Below are positions 32,160-38,143 of a stretch of DNA of 38,143 nt, piece after piece; positions within the stretch are counted from its first letter, which is position 1; the number at the start of each line of letters is the position of its first letter. Below the pieces are notes generated by a model. That model saw only the letters and a program-made list of their open reading frames with translations. It was not told the origin of the DNA and ran no database searches. The translations under genes and the position numbers were made by a program. Source of the DNA: Saprospiraceae bacterium (GTDB lineage Bacteria; Bacteroidota; Bacteroidia; Chitinophagales; Saprospiraceae); contig WFXH01000008.1 in NCBI GenBank assembly GCA_015490715.1, forward strand, positions 1-38,143, written 5' to 3'.

Positions 32160-32291
32160 CGACCGCTTTGGTTGGCCAGCTGTGTGTTCCATGAGAAACT
32201 CTGAGGAGAAGCTATGTGAAAAGATGTGCGAGCACCGTTTTATACAAAAACATCGGATCTTCTAATTTCGCATTGGAAATCGGTTGGTCCA

Positions 32292-33818
32292 ATGACGAAG
32301 ACGATTTTAATGAGCATAGCTGCATTAGGGCTTGTCGTCGATGTTGGAGCCCAGGATTTCTGGCGGGTTCCGCTTCAATCGGAGGTCAACAGCGTGGAGC
32401 CCATGACGGGCTTTGTCTTTTGGGTTGGACAGCGCACCAATACCGATGCCATACAGCTGGAGTTCAGCTATATGAGGTACGACGAGGTGGTCGATGACGA
32501 TGGACACTTTCGATGGGATGCGGTGGAGGCCGTATTGGATAGCGTAGCCAGCCGCAATCATCAGGCCATTTTGCGGTTTTACTATACCTATCCCGGGCAA
32601 CAGACGACCGTGCCCGGCTACATCAAGGCCCTTCCTGACTATGAAGAGACGGTTGGGTGGTCGGAGGGGCAAAAGACCTGGTATCCCGATTGGTCGCATC
32701 CCGAGTTGAAGCGCTTTCACCTGCGGTTTTATCGTGCCTTTGCGGAGCGCTACGATGGCGATCCGCGCTTGGCCTTTTTACAGACGGGCTTTGGGTTATG
32801 GGCCGAATACCACATCTACGATGGGCCGTATCTGTTGGGGAAGACCTTTCCCGACGAGGCCTTTCAACGGGATTTTCTGATGATGATGGATTCCGCCTTT
32901 CAGTACACGCCCTGGTCGATATCCATTGATGCCGCGGATCCCGAAAACGGTCCCTTTGACACGTATCCCGAACTGCTCTCTCTGCGGTTTGGCAATTTTG
33001 ACGATTCCTTTATGGCGGAGGAGCACCCACAGGTCAATGCGCCGCGCTGGGCCTTTTTCGACACCTTAGACAGGTACCGCTGGGCACCTGCAGGCGGTGA
33101 GTTTAGCTATTACTCCGACTACGATCAGATGCACGTGCTCGACCTGCCCGATGGGGCCTACGGCGTCTCGTACGAAGAGATGGCTCGGCGGTTTTCCATC
33201 AGCTATATGATCGGCAACGATCAGCCGGACTATCAGCCCATGTCGCGCATCCGCGAGGCGAGCCAAAATACGGGTTATCACTTTGAAATCGTCGATTTTT
33301 TAACCCGCGCCGACAGCTCTATTGTGTACATCACCAACAAAGGAACGGCTCCCATCTACTATCCGGCGTATGTATCGGTGGATGGCGTGCGCAGTACGAC
33401 GAGCATCCAGGGCCTCATGCCTGGCGATACCCTCCAGTGCGGCATAGCAGCGGGTAGGGCTCCCCACGAAGGCATTCCCATGCTGCGCATCGAAAGCGAT
33501 TTTATCTTGCCCACCCAGACGATTGAATACGACGCCCACATTCAGACGACCCACATTCAAGGCATGCGATCCACCCCGAACAAGCCCCGAATCGTGCTCA
33601 TCGACCATGGGACCGCACGGCTCTGCCAGCTCGACTGGGAAGCCTCCCCGCCTCAAAAGTGCCACATCTCCCTTACGGATATTGGTGGGCACGTTTTGCT
33701 GTCGAAGACTACGGAGGCCTCTGCTCCATGGCCGTTGCCTCCTATCCCAGGGGGCATCTACTTCCTGACGGTCGAGTGGAGTGGCGGCCATAGCGTACAT
33801 CGACTATGGATCGATTGA
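32292..33818 (+). CDS. Secreted DUF4832-like protein with T9SS type A tail
   Basis: A 508-aa exported protein with signal MTKTILMSIAALGLVVDVGA. The middle has the layout of DUF4832/glycoside-hydrolase-like TIM barrels: HQAILRFYYTYPG, FHLRFYRAFAERYDGDPRLA, FLQTGFGLWAEYHIYDGP (in place of the usual GxWGEWH), RFGNFDDSFMAEEHP, and WAPAGGEFSYY. The acidic residues in WAEYH and AEEH could be catalytic, but no activity is established. The last 70 or so residues (ISLTDIGGHVLLSK ... PGGIYFLTVEWSGGHSVHRL) look like a short T9SS type A sorting domain. It would be exported to the surface. Earlier in-frame starts before 32292 lack a signal peptide. Confidence 0.6.
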   Translation: MTKTILMSIAALGLVVDVGAQDFWRVPLQSEVNSVEPMTGFVFWVGQRTNTDAIQLEFSYMRYDEVVDDDGHFRWDAVEAVLDSVASRNHQAILRFYYTYPGQQTTVPGYIKALPDYEETVGWSEGQKTWYPDWSHPELKRFHLRFYRAFAERYDGDPRLAFLQTGFGLWAEYHIYDGPYLLGKTFPDEAFQRDFLMMMDSAFQYTPWSISIDAADPENGPFDTYPELLSLRFGNFDDSFMAEEHPQVNAPRWAFFDTLDRYRWAPAGGEFSYYSDYDQMHVLDLPDGAYGVSYEEMARRFSISYMIGNDQPDYQPMSRIREASQNTGYHFEIVDFLTRADSSIVYITNKGTAPIYYPAYVSVDGVRSTTSIQGLMPGDTLQCGIAAGRAPHEGIPMLRIESDFILPTQTIEYDAHIQTTHIQGMRSTPNKPRIVLIDHGTARLCQLDWEASPPQKCHISLTDIGGHVLLSKTTEASAPWPLPPIPGGIYFLTVEWSGGHSVHRLWID

Positions 33819-34012: not shown

Positions 34013-34729
34013 ATGCACCCAATCCGTTTAGTTCGAATGGCTATTGTAGGGATGCTTTTTGCCCTGATGAGCGCTTGTGTACCCGTTTTTTGGATGGAGG
34101 ACGCCCAAACCCTTGGCCCGGGAAGATGGAAGATCAGCGCAACGGCATCGATGCAGCAAGTCGAATTGGAAGGTAAGAGTTCGTTAAAGGATTTAAAAGG
34201 ATTGTTGATATTGTCCCCTGAAGAGAATTTCAATTGGGACATTCATATCGCCTATGGCCTGACCGATCGCTTCGATTTGGGCGTGGTGTCCAGTTACTAC
34301 ACCGCAGGTCTGACGGGCAAGTTTCGCCTCATCCAACTCCCTGAGGGACATGCCTTTGCTCTGGGTGGGCGTGTACTCGGAGGGCATATCGTCTATGATC
34401 CTTTTCCGGAGTCTAAGTGGCACTCTTATCTTCCGCTTTTAGGCTCTTCGTTCCCCTTATTGAGCTGGCAGACCTATGCCTTTTACACCCATTGCTTCCG
34501 CGGGGGAAGGGTAACGTTACAGCCGGGCTGGAGTTATTTCTACATCGGAAGGGACAACGATTATCTCAACTTCGGCACGGCCACACTGGGTATCCATGTG
34601 AGCGTACCCCTCCACCAGCACATTACTCTGCACATCGGTTACCACGGTAGTAAGTCGCTCTACGTTTACAATAGAGCGCTTGACATAAAAACGTCCAGCC
34701 TGCGAAGTAGCCTTAGCTACAGCTTTTAA
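34013..34729 (+). CDS. Array lipoprotein 1: small outer-membrane beta-barrel paralog
   Basis: A 238-aa lipoprotein with a 22-residue signal ending MSAC. Right after the lipobox comes VPVFWMEDAQTLGPGRWKIS, the family signature. The rest alternates hydrophobic and polar residues in strand-sized runs: IAYGLTDRFDLGVVSSYY, GLTGKFRLIQLPEGHAFALG, VTLQPGWSYFYIG and a C-terminal SSLSYSF ending in Phe as in barrel proteins. The GxTDRxDxG segment is a turn-strand motif seen in other Bacteroidota small barrels. I know no assigned function. It is the most divergent of the intact members and the only one with a clear promoter. The last intact gene before it encodes a T9SS cargo. Confidence 0.65.
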   Translation: MHPIRLVRMAIVGMLFALMSACVPVFWMEDAQTLGPGRWKISATASMQQVELEGKSSLKDLKGLLILSPEENFNWDIHIAYGLTDRFDLGVVSSYYTAGLTGKFRLIQLPEGHAFALGGRVLGGHIVYDPFPESKWHSYLPLLGSSFPLLSWQTYAFYTHCFRGGRVTLQPGWSYFYIGRDNDYLNFGTATLGIHVSVPLHQHITLHIGYHGSKSLYVYNRALDIKTSSLRSSLSYSF

Positions 34730-35364
34730 TGCCAGTGCAGCCTACGGCTCTACAGCTGTTTAAAACCTTATCATAGAGGAAACGGCGCAGAAGGCGGTCG
34801 AGTCTGAGCGGAGGACGTGTTTGTACTGCTTGTACAATGGTCGGCACCCTATGCAGGGATTGACCTGCGGCCAAAGAGATAGGGCAGACAGCTTCGATAC
34901 GGTAGTGGTTCGCCCTCGAAAGGGTGGAGTGGATTGTGTATCGAAGTCGACTCCATCCGAGTATGTACCGAGGCGAGAGCGCTCACATCCATATCCGTCA
35001 TCGTGCAGTAGGCCTACACCGAAATGACACGCACCGTTTTGGCTTATACGAGATCGTACACCTACGTGTCGAGACCACATCCGCATCGGAGCCCATGTTC
35101 ATCAGCGATTGTCGGTGCTATCGGCTTCGCAGTTGGTCGCTCGGCAAGGGCACTGATAGGGAATGGTGGTGATCTTTTCCGTTTTCATGGCATTCAGATG
35201 TGTTGCTATGGAGGGAGATATATGTGGATATGATGTCTTTTTGTGAGAAAGAATTTTAATCAATTGAAAATTTTTTCAATGAGTGGTCGTTAAACCAAAT
35301 AGCAAGAGCTCTTTAGGGCACTTGTCGGAAAATACGGAGAGAATAAATAAAAAACACTGCCATT
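34730..35364 (+). other. 635-bp gap with degenerate duplicated DNA
   Basis: No intact gene is visible. From about 35091 to the next start the sequence can be aligned by eye with 37154-37400: GCCCATGTTCATCAGC here against GCCCATGTTTATCAGC there, then TATCGGCTTCGCA / TATCGGTTTCGCA and GCTCGGC further on. Short frames in the same register (encoding PMFIS...CYRLR) look like the end of a decayed gene. A 6-bp inverted repeat (TTGTAC ... GTACAA) lies near 34818-34834. The first 350 bp show nothing recognisable. No consensus promoter was found before 35365. Confidence 0.5.
35263..35280. repeat. AT-rich perfect 8-bp inverted repeat
   Basis: ATTGAAAA, a 2-nt centre TT, then TTTTCAAT. It lies 85 nt before array lipoprotein 2. 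The equivalent position before lipoprotein 4 (around 37324-37344) has a degenerate version. It could be a protein-binding site or a weak hairpin. Confidence 0.4.
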
Positions 35365-36042
35365 ATGGGAGCGAATCGATGGATCGGATGGCGTAGGGCT
35401 ATATGTCTTTACGCAGGGCTCGTCTTGTTGACGTCGTGTCAGCCGTTTTATTGGATGGAAGATGCGCATACACTGGGGAAGGGAAGGTGGAAGGTCGATG
35501 GTCAGGCCTACATTCAATATTGGGATCCTGCGTATAAAGACAATCGAATACCAGGATGGGCATTTTTAGACTTCGGTTGTTCCTATGGCGTGACCGATCG
35601 CTTGGATCTTGGATGGATGGCCACCAGTGCGACCATTACGGGGCTGCGGTGGAAATACCGCTTGTTTCAAACACCAGCCAAACACGCCTTAGCTGTGGGT
35701 GGACGTTGTATGACCCATGTCGCATTTTTATCGCTCGGTTTATCCTATTTCGAAATCTATTGGCAGACGGACCTGCGGTATACGCGGAGTTATCGATGGG
35801 GCACGTTGTCATTCAATCCATCGGTGATGTATTATCGCTACGCGAAGACTAAGGAAGACTTATTTCCCTTTCATGCCTTTTTGGGCCTGCATGCCAATCT
35901 TCCATTAATTGGTGATCAGCTCACCCTTCAGATCGGCGGTAGCGGAGGATACCCCATTATCTCCCCCTTCCGAAGAGCCAAAAAATACTTTTTCTTTACA
36001 GGAGGTGTGGGAATGGCCTACAGCTTTGGCAGGAAGCGTTGA
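35365..36042 (+). CDS. Array lipoprotein 2: small outer-membrane beta-barrel paralog
   Basis: A 225-aa lipoprotein with a 25-residue signal ending LLTSC. The signature PFYWMEDAHTLGKGRWKVDG follows, then CSYGVTDRLDLGWMATSATI, GLRWKYRLFQTPAKHALAVG, YRWGTLSFNPSVMYYRY, LQIGGSGGYP and a terminal GGVGMAYSFGRKR. Its first ~144 bp differ from array lipoprotein 4 at only seven positions by eye, whereas the centre (residues about 50-150) is clearly divergent and the 3' end is again similar. This pattern suggests duplication followed by diversification or partial gene conversion. Function is unknown. The terminal strand resembles the C-terminal strand of outer-membrane barrels but with a basic GRKR tail. 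Confidence 0.65.
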   Translation: MGANRWIGWRRAICLYAGLVLLTSCQPFYWMEDAHTLGKGRWKVDGQAYIQYWDPAYKDNRIPGWAFLDFGCSYGVTDRLDLGWMATSATITGLRWKYRLFQTPAKHALAVGGRCMTHVAFLSLGLSYFEIYWQTDLRYTRSYRWGTLSFNPSVMYYRYAKTKEDLFPFHAFLGLHANLPLIGDQLTLQIGGSGGYPIISPFRRAKKYFFFTGGVGMAYSFGRKR

Positions 36043-36196
36043 AGGACGACCGTTTTAACCAACCAAAACGCCACAACCATCGTCCATAATTATTGAGGAC
36101 TATCGCACAATTGGTGGTGAACAATCCTTTTTGCTGTGCAATTGGAGATAGATTTTATTGTGATAAGTAATGATAGCAAAACGTATTTTGATCGGT

Positions 36197-36868
36197 ATGA
36201 AATGGTTGATGCAATGTAAGGTTATTGGGCTGCTGGCGAGCGTGGCATTGTTCTGTTCGTGTAGGTCGTCTATTGTGATGGAAGACGCATACACTTTGGG
36301 TCGTGGCAACTGGAAAGTGGAATTGCAAGCGGCCCAACAGCATGTTGTAATCTACGATGAGCGCAAAGACCGGTTTAATAACACCTCGACAATACAAGAT
36401 TATGTAGCTGAGGGCTTGGTGTCTCAGTTTGATGTACAGTTATCTGTCGGATTGACGGATCGATTGGATGTCGGTGGGAAGTTCAATACAAATTCCAGCG
36501 GATTGATGGCGAAATATCTACTTGCGTGATATCCTTCGGGTTTTGCGCTCGCCATAAGAGGTGGTATACACTCTTTCGAATGGGCATTGTATACCAACTA
36601 TGTGCAATTGCGGGCAGATATGTTGTATACCATGCCGCTCTGGAAGGGGTCGCTGACTCTGCAGCCGGGATGGCAGCAGTTCGTTATTCGAGAGGAGTTG
36701 TCTTTAGTGAGCTTTGGCTTTTTGAGCATGGGTTTGCACCTCGGAGTGCCGATAGACGATCACGCTATCTTTCGCATCGGATTATTTGGGGGCAGTAAGC
36801 TCATCCCCAAAGACAGTACACAAGCATTTTTCCTCAGTTTGAAGAGTGGCTTTTGCTTTTATTTTTGA
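36197..36868 (+). pseudogene. Array lipoprotein 3: paralog interrupted by in-frame TGA
   Basis: From ATG 36197 the product has a 22-residue lipoprotein signal ending FCSC, then SIVMEDAYTLGRGNWKVELQ and LSVGLTDRLDVGGKFNTNSS. It stops at TGA 36527-36529, after GLMAKYLLA. The same frame continues with homologous sequence to 36868: YPSGFALAIRGG, LTLQPGWQQFVI, FLSMGLHLGVPIDDHAIFRI and FFLSLKSGFCFYF. These align with array lipoprotein 1 (LPEGHAFALGG, VTLQPGWSYFYI). A single stop is therefore the only visible lesion, and no frameshift is needed. An ATG at 36170 is an alternative start, but 36197 gives the same signal length as lipoprotein 1. It could be a recent pseudogene, a sequencing error or a phase-variable allele. 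Confidence 0.75.
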
Positions 36869-37400
36869 CCATACGCCGTTTAATGCTGCTCGTACGATAC
36901 ATAGTTCCTTGCTCCGTCGGTCCGTAGAAATCGAGGGGTGTTTGGTGAAATTTTGAAGTGAACGATTGCATGCGCCATGATGATTCACAAATGTATTCCT
37001 TGGCCTGTCGAGGTGAATGATATGTCTTGTCGGGTCAATTTATCGGTTTCCACATTGTGGGGTATCGGTAAAATTAGAAAGATGTGGATGGGGCATCGGT
37101 ATTGGCTATGTCCAAGGGAGCGAGGGAGGGGAAATGGCCACACTCATGTCGGGGCCCATGTTTATCAGCATTTATCGATGGTATCGGTTTCGCATTTAGA
37201 CGCTCGGCCAGGGGCCGCTGCGAGGGGGAAGGTCGGAGCTTTTCGGTTTTGATGACTATCTGTGGTGTCGCTATGGTGTAGATATGAATGGATGCAAGGG
37301 GTTTACAAGAGATAATTTTTAATAGGTTGAAAAAAATTTTGACAAGGGTTCTTCTGGGTTTTTGTCGGGAAATACAGAGAGAATAAAAAGAACTGCCATT
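36869..37400 (+). other. 532-bp gap with decayed coding relic and duplicated leader
   Basis: No intact gene is visible. A 60-codon frame at 37017-37199 contains CGWGIGIGYVQGSEGGEMAT and GPMFISIYRWYRFRI, whose strand-like pattern recalls an outer-membrane barrel but which has no signal peptide and stops early. From 37154 the DNA aligns with 35091 onward. The last 60 bp before 37401 (GTCGGGAAATACAGAGAGAATAAA ... CTGCCATT) closely match those before 35365, so the leader was duplicated with the gene. No consensus promoter is evident. Confidence 0.5.
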
Positions 37401-38075
37401 ATGGGAGCGAATCGATGGATTGGATGGTGTAGGGCTATATGTCTTTACGCAGGGCTCGCCCTGTTGACGTCGTGTCAGCCGTTTTATTGGATGGAAGATG
37501 CGCATACCTTGGGGAAGGGAAGGTGGAAGGTCGATGGTCAGGCTTACTATCAGTTTTGGGAAGCGGCGGCTAAGGAGTACCCAATATTTTTTTATTGTTG
37601 TGGACATGCGGAATTCGGCTTCTCCTACGGCATGACCGATCGACTGGACATCGGATGGATGTATAGTGGTATACATTACACAGGTATGCGCTGGAAATAC
37701 AATGTTTTTAATACTCCGCCAAAACACGCGCTATCGGTCGGTGGTCGAGCCATGATCAATACATACTTTCTCAGTGGCAACAGCCTCGGCCTCAACTGGC
37801 AGACGGACCTGTGGTATACGCGGAACTATCGATGGGGCACCTTGACATTCAATCCGTCGGTGACCTATAACTACTTGAGCGATGTTGAAAACAGACATCC
37901 TCTCTACGGCTTTTTCGGCCTACATGCCCATCTTCCACTAATCGATGGTCAGCTCACCTTTCAATTCGGTGGTAGCGGGGGATATCCCCTTACCAATCCC
38001 TTGTGGGAGGCTAAAGGCAACTTCATCTTTACGGGAGGCGTGGGAATGGCCTACAGCTTTGGCAAGAAGAGATAG
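37401..38075 (+). CDS. Array lipoprotein 4: small outer-membrane beta-barrel paralog
   Basis: A 224-aa lipoprotein nearly identical to array lipoprotein 2 at its N-terminus (signal ending LLTSC, then PFYWMEDAHTLGKGRWKVDG). The centre differs: it contains YPIFFYCCGHAEFGFSYGMT with a paired Cys-Cys, then DRLDIGWMYSGIHYTGMRWK. The 3' third again resembles its partner (YRWGTLTFNPSVTYNY, FQFGGSGGYP, GGVGMAYSFGKKR). The start at 37401 is set by the signal peptide and by identity with lipoprotein 2; the frame is open upstream to 37362. The remaining 68 bases of the window contain only a 12-bp palindrome, GTTTGATCAAAC (38075-38086), overlapping the stop codon. Confidence 0.65.
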   Translation: MGANRWIGWCRAICLYAGLALLTSCQPFYWMEDAHTLGKGRWKVDGQAYYQFWEAAAKEYPIFFYCCGHAEFGFSYGMTDRLDIGWMYSGIHYTGMRWKYNVFNTPPKHALSVGGRAMINTYFLSGNSLGLNWQTDLWYTRNYRWGTLTFNPSVTYNYLSDVENRHPLYGFFGLHAHLPLIDGQLTFQFGGSGGYPLTNPLWEAKGNFIFTGGVGMAYSFGKKR

Positions 38076-38143
38076 TTTGATCAAACCATTTACCATGGAT
38101 TTGGAGAGGGATTTTATGGTGTAAAATGTAAAGGGGAGCAAAA

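Follow-up and report, generated by a model that had tools for sequence, protein, structure and literature searches.

A tandem array of predicted lipid-tethered, ten-stranded outer-membrane barrels evolving under constraint in a Saprospiraceae genus

The stretch of DNA analysed here (the window) is the whole of contig C8, 38143 bp, from a 2.45 Mb MAG, and it carries four tandem paralogues, all on the forward strand, among the following features:

34013-34729, + strand: copy 1, ORF of 238 aa with lipobox LMSAC; putatively lipid-anchored, 10 predicted strands
35086-35347, + strand: non-coding block 5' of copy 2, repeated 5' of copy 4
35365-36042, + strand: copy 2, ORF of 225 aa with lipobox LLTSC; putatively lipid-anchored, 10 predicted strands
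36170-36868, + strand: copy 3, broken by one in-frame TGA, otherwise full length; lipobox LFCSC
37149-37387, + strand: non-coding block 5' of copy 4, duplicate of 35086-35347
37401-38075, + strand: copy 4, ORF of 224 aa with lipobox LLTSC; predicted lipid-anchored barrel nearest to copy 2
37993-38143, + strand: contig end, an exact 151-nt overlap with contig C60, where the array goes on

As the preliminary description had it, all four copies share a lipobox, the MEDAxTLGxGxWK segment immediately after its cysteine, a GxTDRxDxG motif (GLTDR, GVTDR or GMTDR followed by x-D-x-G) and a beta-rich C-terminal part. The signature recurs beyond chance: the same profile retrieves seven genes of the family from the sister genome, the nearest same-genus relative compared, which matches Saprospiraceae MAG JALWKB01. 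Lipidation, as judged from the lipoboxes, is very likely. The residues that follow the cysteine (CVPVFWMED, CQPFYWMED, CRSSIVMED) include no acidic residue within five positions; in other Bacteroidota, acidic residues directly behind the cysteine act as a signal for lipoprotein export, and for Saprospiraceae such a signal is undefined. The four genes are all paralogous with shared motifs, but they are not all intact, copy 3 being interrupted at codon 120 by an in-frame TGA (36527-36529). Recoding of this TGA was considered and rejected because the frame is open in the sister (L011:367-1095) and other genes read normally. Upstream of the array, at 32226-33818, lies a gene for an exported protein of 530 aa that matches nothing in Pfam and ends in a T9SS-like tail; it is conserved in the sister (93% aa).

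The four-gene array described earlier is real, but it is part of a larger locus. C8 stops at 38143, and its last 151 nt recur exactly, reverse-complemented, at one end of C60. There the array goes on with a copy-3 relic and then copy 5, which is open in the sister and here is broken by six in-frame stops and small indels. Two further intact paralogues, A and B, lie at the end of contig C65. Sister contig C115 aligns both to C60:1-1628 and to the C65 end, with 446 bp between, so that the seven family genes form one locus of ~10 kb, the C60-C65 join in this genome being taken from C115, since the two contigs have no direct overlap. In window orientation, the order is copies 1, 2, 3, 4, the copy-3 relic and copy 5 on the + strand; then a Cys-rich zinc-ribbon-like gene, MerT-HMA and two c3 genes, all on the - strand; and, at the 3' end, paralogues A and B (+) and one c3 gene (-). 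The three c3 genes (L036:1-2040, L037:14162-15478 and L038:3-1859) lie on the opposite strand, interleaved with the barrels on C60, C65 and sister C115. They are paralogues whose exported products have about 320-440 aa; these products are without a Pfam match, and DUF3298, considered as an assignment, gave no match in this genome. Beside copy 5, C60 carries a MerT + HMA fusion and the small Cys-rich zinc-ribbon-like protein (GDCCVYCSYG; L036:2143-3053). A scan of promoters and terminators gave no excess over shuffles.

Searches of Pfam and NCBIfam returned nothing significant for the window proteins, and no model in either collection covers them, in line with the earlier statement that the signature has no assigned function. 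No window protein reaches the curated cut-off of PF13557 or DUF5777 (PF19089), nor does any protein of the same genome exceed that of PF13557. A genus profile searched against Bacteroidota leads to an unnamed lipid-anchored family, with homologues in 64/298 Saprospiraceae genomes, usually as one copy; elsewhere in the phylum most of what it retrieves is DUF5777-like, at about 290 aa. The window proteins match this Saprospiraceae family over the full-length profile (hhalign, 99.6% over 206 columns) and share its N-terminal lipobox, the pattern of which is found in 32 of 35 members, with the cysteine co-located by eye in the other three. In profile comparison, the Saprospiraceae family matches PF13557 at 97.1% and DUF5777 at 93.9%, with decoy barrels at <=0.2%, and the window family matches PF13557 directly at a weak 21%. 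PF13568 members of the same genome, considered as kin and found to be related only as barrels, served as decoys. Relatives show subthreshold matches to PF13557, DUF5777 and OMP_b-brl, one of them (in G065) exceeds the DUF5777 cut-off (25.3 over 23.1), and the COG4313 channel 4RL8 is the sole PDB sequence match (E 0.078). From these profile matches, the array reads as an unnamed, unmodelled lipid-anchored branch of a known barrel architecture. The combination of lipid anchor and barrel had been called unusual; we would not call it so, as nearly all members read of the related Saprospiraceae family are lipid-anchored and lipidated TolC homologues offer a precedent in the literature (PMC13082787). 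Our literature search found no described family of lipidated small barrels in Bacteroidota. A family member in one other genus (L023:1363-1938, G012) reads SEGG, without a cysteine, where the lipobox is expected, and its match contains a TAA; this gene may be broken. In another Saprospiraceae genus (L074:94-3339, L076:2-1013, L082:8015-11753) the single lipid-anchored barrel follows, after 6-16 bp, the gene for an STN-domain-like outer-membrane protein of 867 aa, with an ECF sigma factor adjoining in L082; the arrangement looks like an operon.

AlphaFold2 models, built from an input alignment of eight sequences from this and the sister genome and of moderate confidence (pLDDT 73-75), have 10 strands in both copies folded (copy 2, pLDDT 75.1, pTM 0.72; copy 1, pLDDT 72.7, pTM 0.70), so the earlier suggestion of complete small lipid-anchored barrels is borne out at the level of prediction. 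Matches found with VIA-align include OpcA (Z 15.7-16.7), Legionella porin I, the designed barrel TMB10 (1.7-1.9 A over 132-133 residues), omptins and, at Z 11.1-11.3, 4RL8, whose alignment to the models starts at its residue 1-2. The strands alternate in hydrophobicity (z 4.8 in copy 2 and 1.9 in copy 1), aromatic content is high and the terminal strand has an aromatic motif. Strand number, fold matches and alternation agree, as predictions, with an MBB, that is, an even-numbered amphipathic barrel with a terminal aromatic strand, and the modelling makes the barrel nature of these proteins highly probable. In the predicted topology, the lipid and the MEDAxTLGxGxWK segment come ahead of strand 1, and GxTDRxDxG makes up the first turn on the periplasmic face; the conserved motifs are thus modelled on the periplasmic side, and only the loops would be exposed at the surface.

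Divergence within the window is uneven, as first described: pairwise identity runs from 30 to 66% in one comparison, and in another copies 2 and 4 have 66% of their amino acids in common, other pairs 27-35%. The first 50 codons of copies 2 and 4 are ~94% identical in nucleotides, and early gene conversion of their 5' ends is possible. The upstream blocks (35086-35347 and 37149-37387) share 66% nt identity and are kept in the sister; they were considered as barrel relics and rejected, having no protein similarity to the family. The copy-3 relic lies 3' of copy 4, paralleling copy 3 after copy 2, and it too is found in the sister, so that the duplication relics are common to both species. Taken together, the repeated blocks, the likeness of copies 2 and 4 and the copy-3 relic fit duplication of a unit of copy 2 + copy 3, which would have taken place in tandem before the two species split, the second copy 3 then being lost. 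The array as a whole probably arose by tandem duplication in the ancestor of the genus; purifying selection would now act on it while some of its copies decay.

The preliminary description saw in this divergence selection for variety at the cell surface, with different paralogue loops serving phage or immune avoidance or ligand choice. Some of the data lean that way: between paralogues the loops differ most (0.88, against 0.65 in strands and 0.34 in the N-terminal mature segment, the least variable part), and between orthologues residue differences reach 19% in loops vs about 10% elsewhere (Fisher p 4e-5), about twice as often. However, in the two genomes on which the selection results rest, this MAG and the sister, orthologue dN/dS of the family genes is 0.12-0.41 (neighbouring genes, about 0.16) and, by predicted topology, 0.34 in extracellular loops and 0.19 in the remainder. 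Since no value exceeds 1, loops included, selection for variety is unsupported. Comparison of gene order with a related genome goes the same way, copy number (seven), order and spacing being identical in the sister, the sole sister genome compared; strong inverted, invertible or phase-variable repeats were searched for and none was found; copies 3 and 5 are broken here; and outer-membrane barrels in general have loops that change faster. The pattern is one of constraint with ordinary mild loop relaxation, and an array for surface variation is unlikely. The broken copies, namely copy 3 with its nonsense codon, copy 5 with indels and six in-frame stops, and the copy-3 relic, would rather suit a neutral expansion in which duplicated barrels of little function erode by mutation. 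Yet all seven genes read open in the sister (copy 2 there divided across two contigs), the family is elsewhere kept as a single copy, and the orthologue dN/dS implies constraint since the species split: intact copy 1 gives 0.31 (86% aa identity), copy 2 gives 0.24 (88% aa), and even the body of copy 3 gives 0.21 despite its TGA. Neutral expansion, too, is improbable.

A further alternative is a surface-exposed barrel that is soluble and held by its lipid anchor. Lipobox and barrel occur together here, and neisserial surface lipoproteins such as NHBA have 8-strand barrel domains (PMC7857515); but the present proteins have 10 predicted strands with alternating hydrophobic faces, many aromatics and a terminal aromatic strand motif, their best fold matches are transmembrane barrels, and their profile kinship is with PF13557 and DUF5777. 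We regard a soluble barrel as very improbable. That the seven barrels with different loops, the three c3 proteins and the metal-related MerT-HMA make up one dedicated multi-protein outer-membrane system is a long shot.

We interpret the data as most consistent with barrels, lipid-tethered and plugged by their N-termini, that have expanded in this genus specifically. On this reading, which we favour by a modest degree, they would be constrained lipid-tethered outer-membrane barrels of an unnamed Bacteroidota family akin to COG4313/PF13557 and DUF5777, probably acting as narrow plugged conduits or receptors. The signal peptide and lipobox cysteine, read from the sequence, would give a lipid that fixes the N-terminus at the periplasmic side. 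Since 4RL8 aligns from its residue 1-2, with its lumen-occluding segment, we propose a plug here: the ~15-residue MEDAxTLGxGxWK segment probably enters the periplasmic mouth or lies across it, like its counterpart in 4RL8. Then would follow the predicted 10-stranded barrel, with GxTDRxDxG as its first periplasmic turn and a last strand ending in an aromatic motif that resembles a BAM signal, and extracellular loops whose variability appears in alignment gaps and substitutions. By kinship, the best single guess is that small or hydrophobic compounds are what these narrow, plugged proteins would conduct or bind. Transport as such is doubtful and may be wrong: barrels with 10 strands, OpcA and OmpT among them, do not form open pores. 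The direct window-to-PF13557 match of 21% and the 12 strands of 4RL8 vs 10 here also count against our reading, and no general conserved neighbour across genera gives a pointer to the substrate. The array would add to the COG4313/DUF5777 superfamily a lipid-anchored branch that Pfam and NCBIfam models lack, and so compact an expanded set in one genus could serve as a testbed for the role of an N-terminal lipid in a small outer-membrane barrel.

Among named systems, COG4313/PF13557 proteins, including 4RL8, share with the window proteins a conserved N-terminal segment before strand 1, a first periplasmic turn of the RYGLTDxxEL type and a barrel that runs to the C-terminus, with a 97% profile match via the Saprospiraceae relatives and a structural Z of about 11; they differ in having 12 strands and about 250-270 aa, and nearly all members examined are without a lipobox. 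In the alignment, the N-terminal segment of the window proteins falls on the segment that occupies the lumen in 4RL8, and COG4313 channels are 12-stranded, with an N-terminal segment that occludes the lumen in 4RL8 (PMC4493636). DUF5777 proteins have a YGITDRLxIG turn and similar following strands (80-94% profile match), but are unlipidated and about 300 aa long, and most genomes carry between one and a few of them. OpcA, omptins and TMB10 share the 10-stranded outer-membrane barrel architecture, but at 7-14% identity show no sequence kinship, and are unlipidated. Omptins need conserved Asp-His and Asp-Asp catalytic residues; an omptin-type enzyme was rejected here, the genus-level alignment of nine having no invariant His. 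Closest are the Saprospiraceae relatives (e.g. L041, L051, L072), which agree in length, lipobox, a GRTLGxGN segment, a YGxTDxLDxG turn and a KYQ strand, but are mostly single-copy and about 20% identical; among the relatives read, only those in the genus of the window have the signature in its WMEDA/W-K form.
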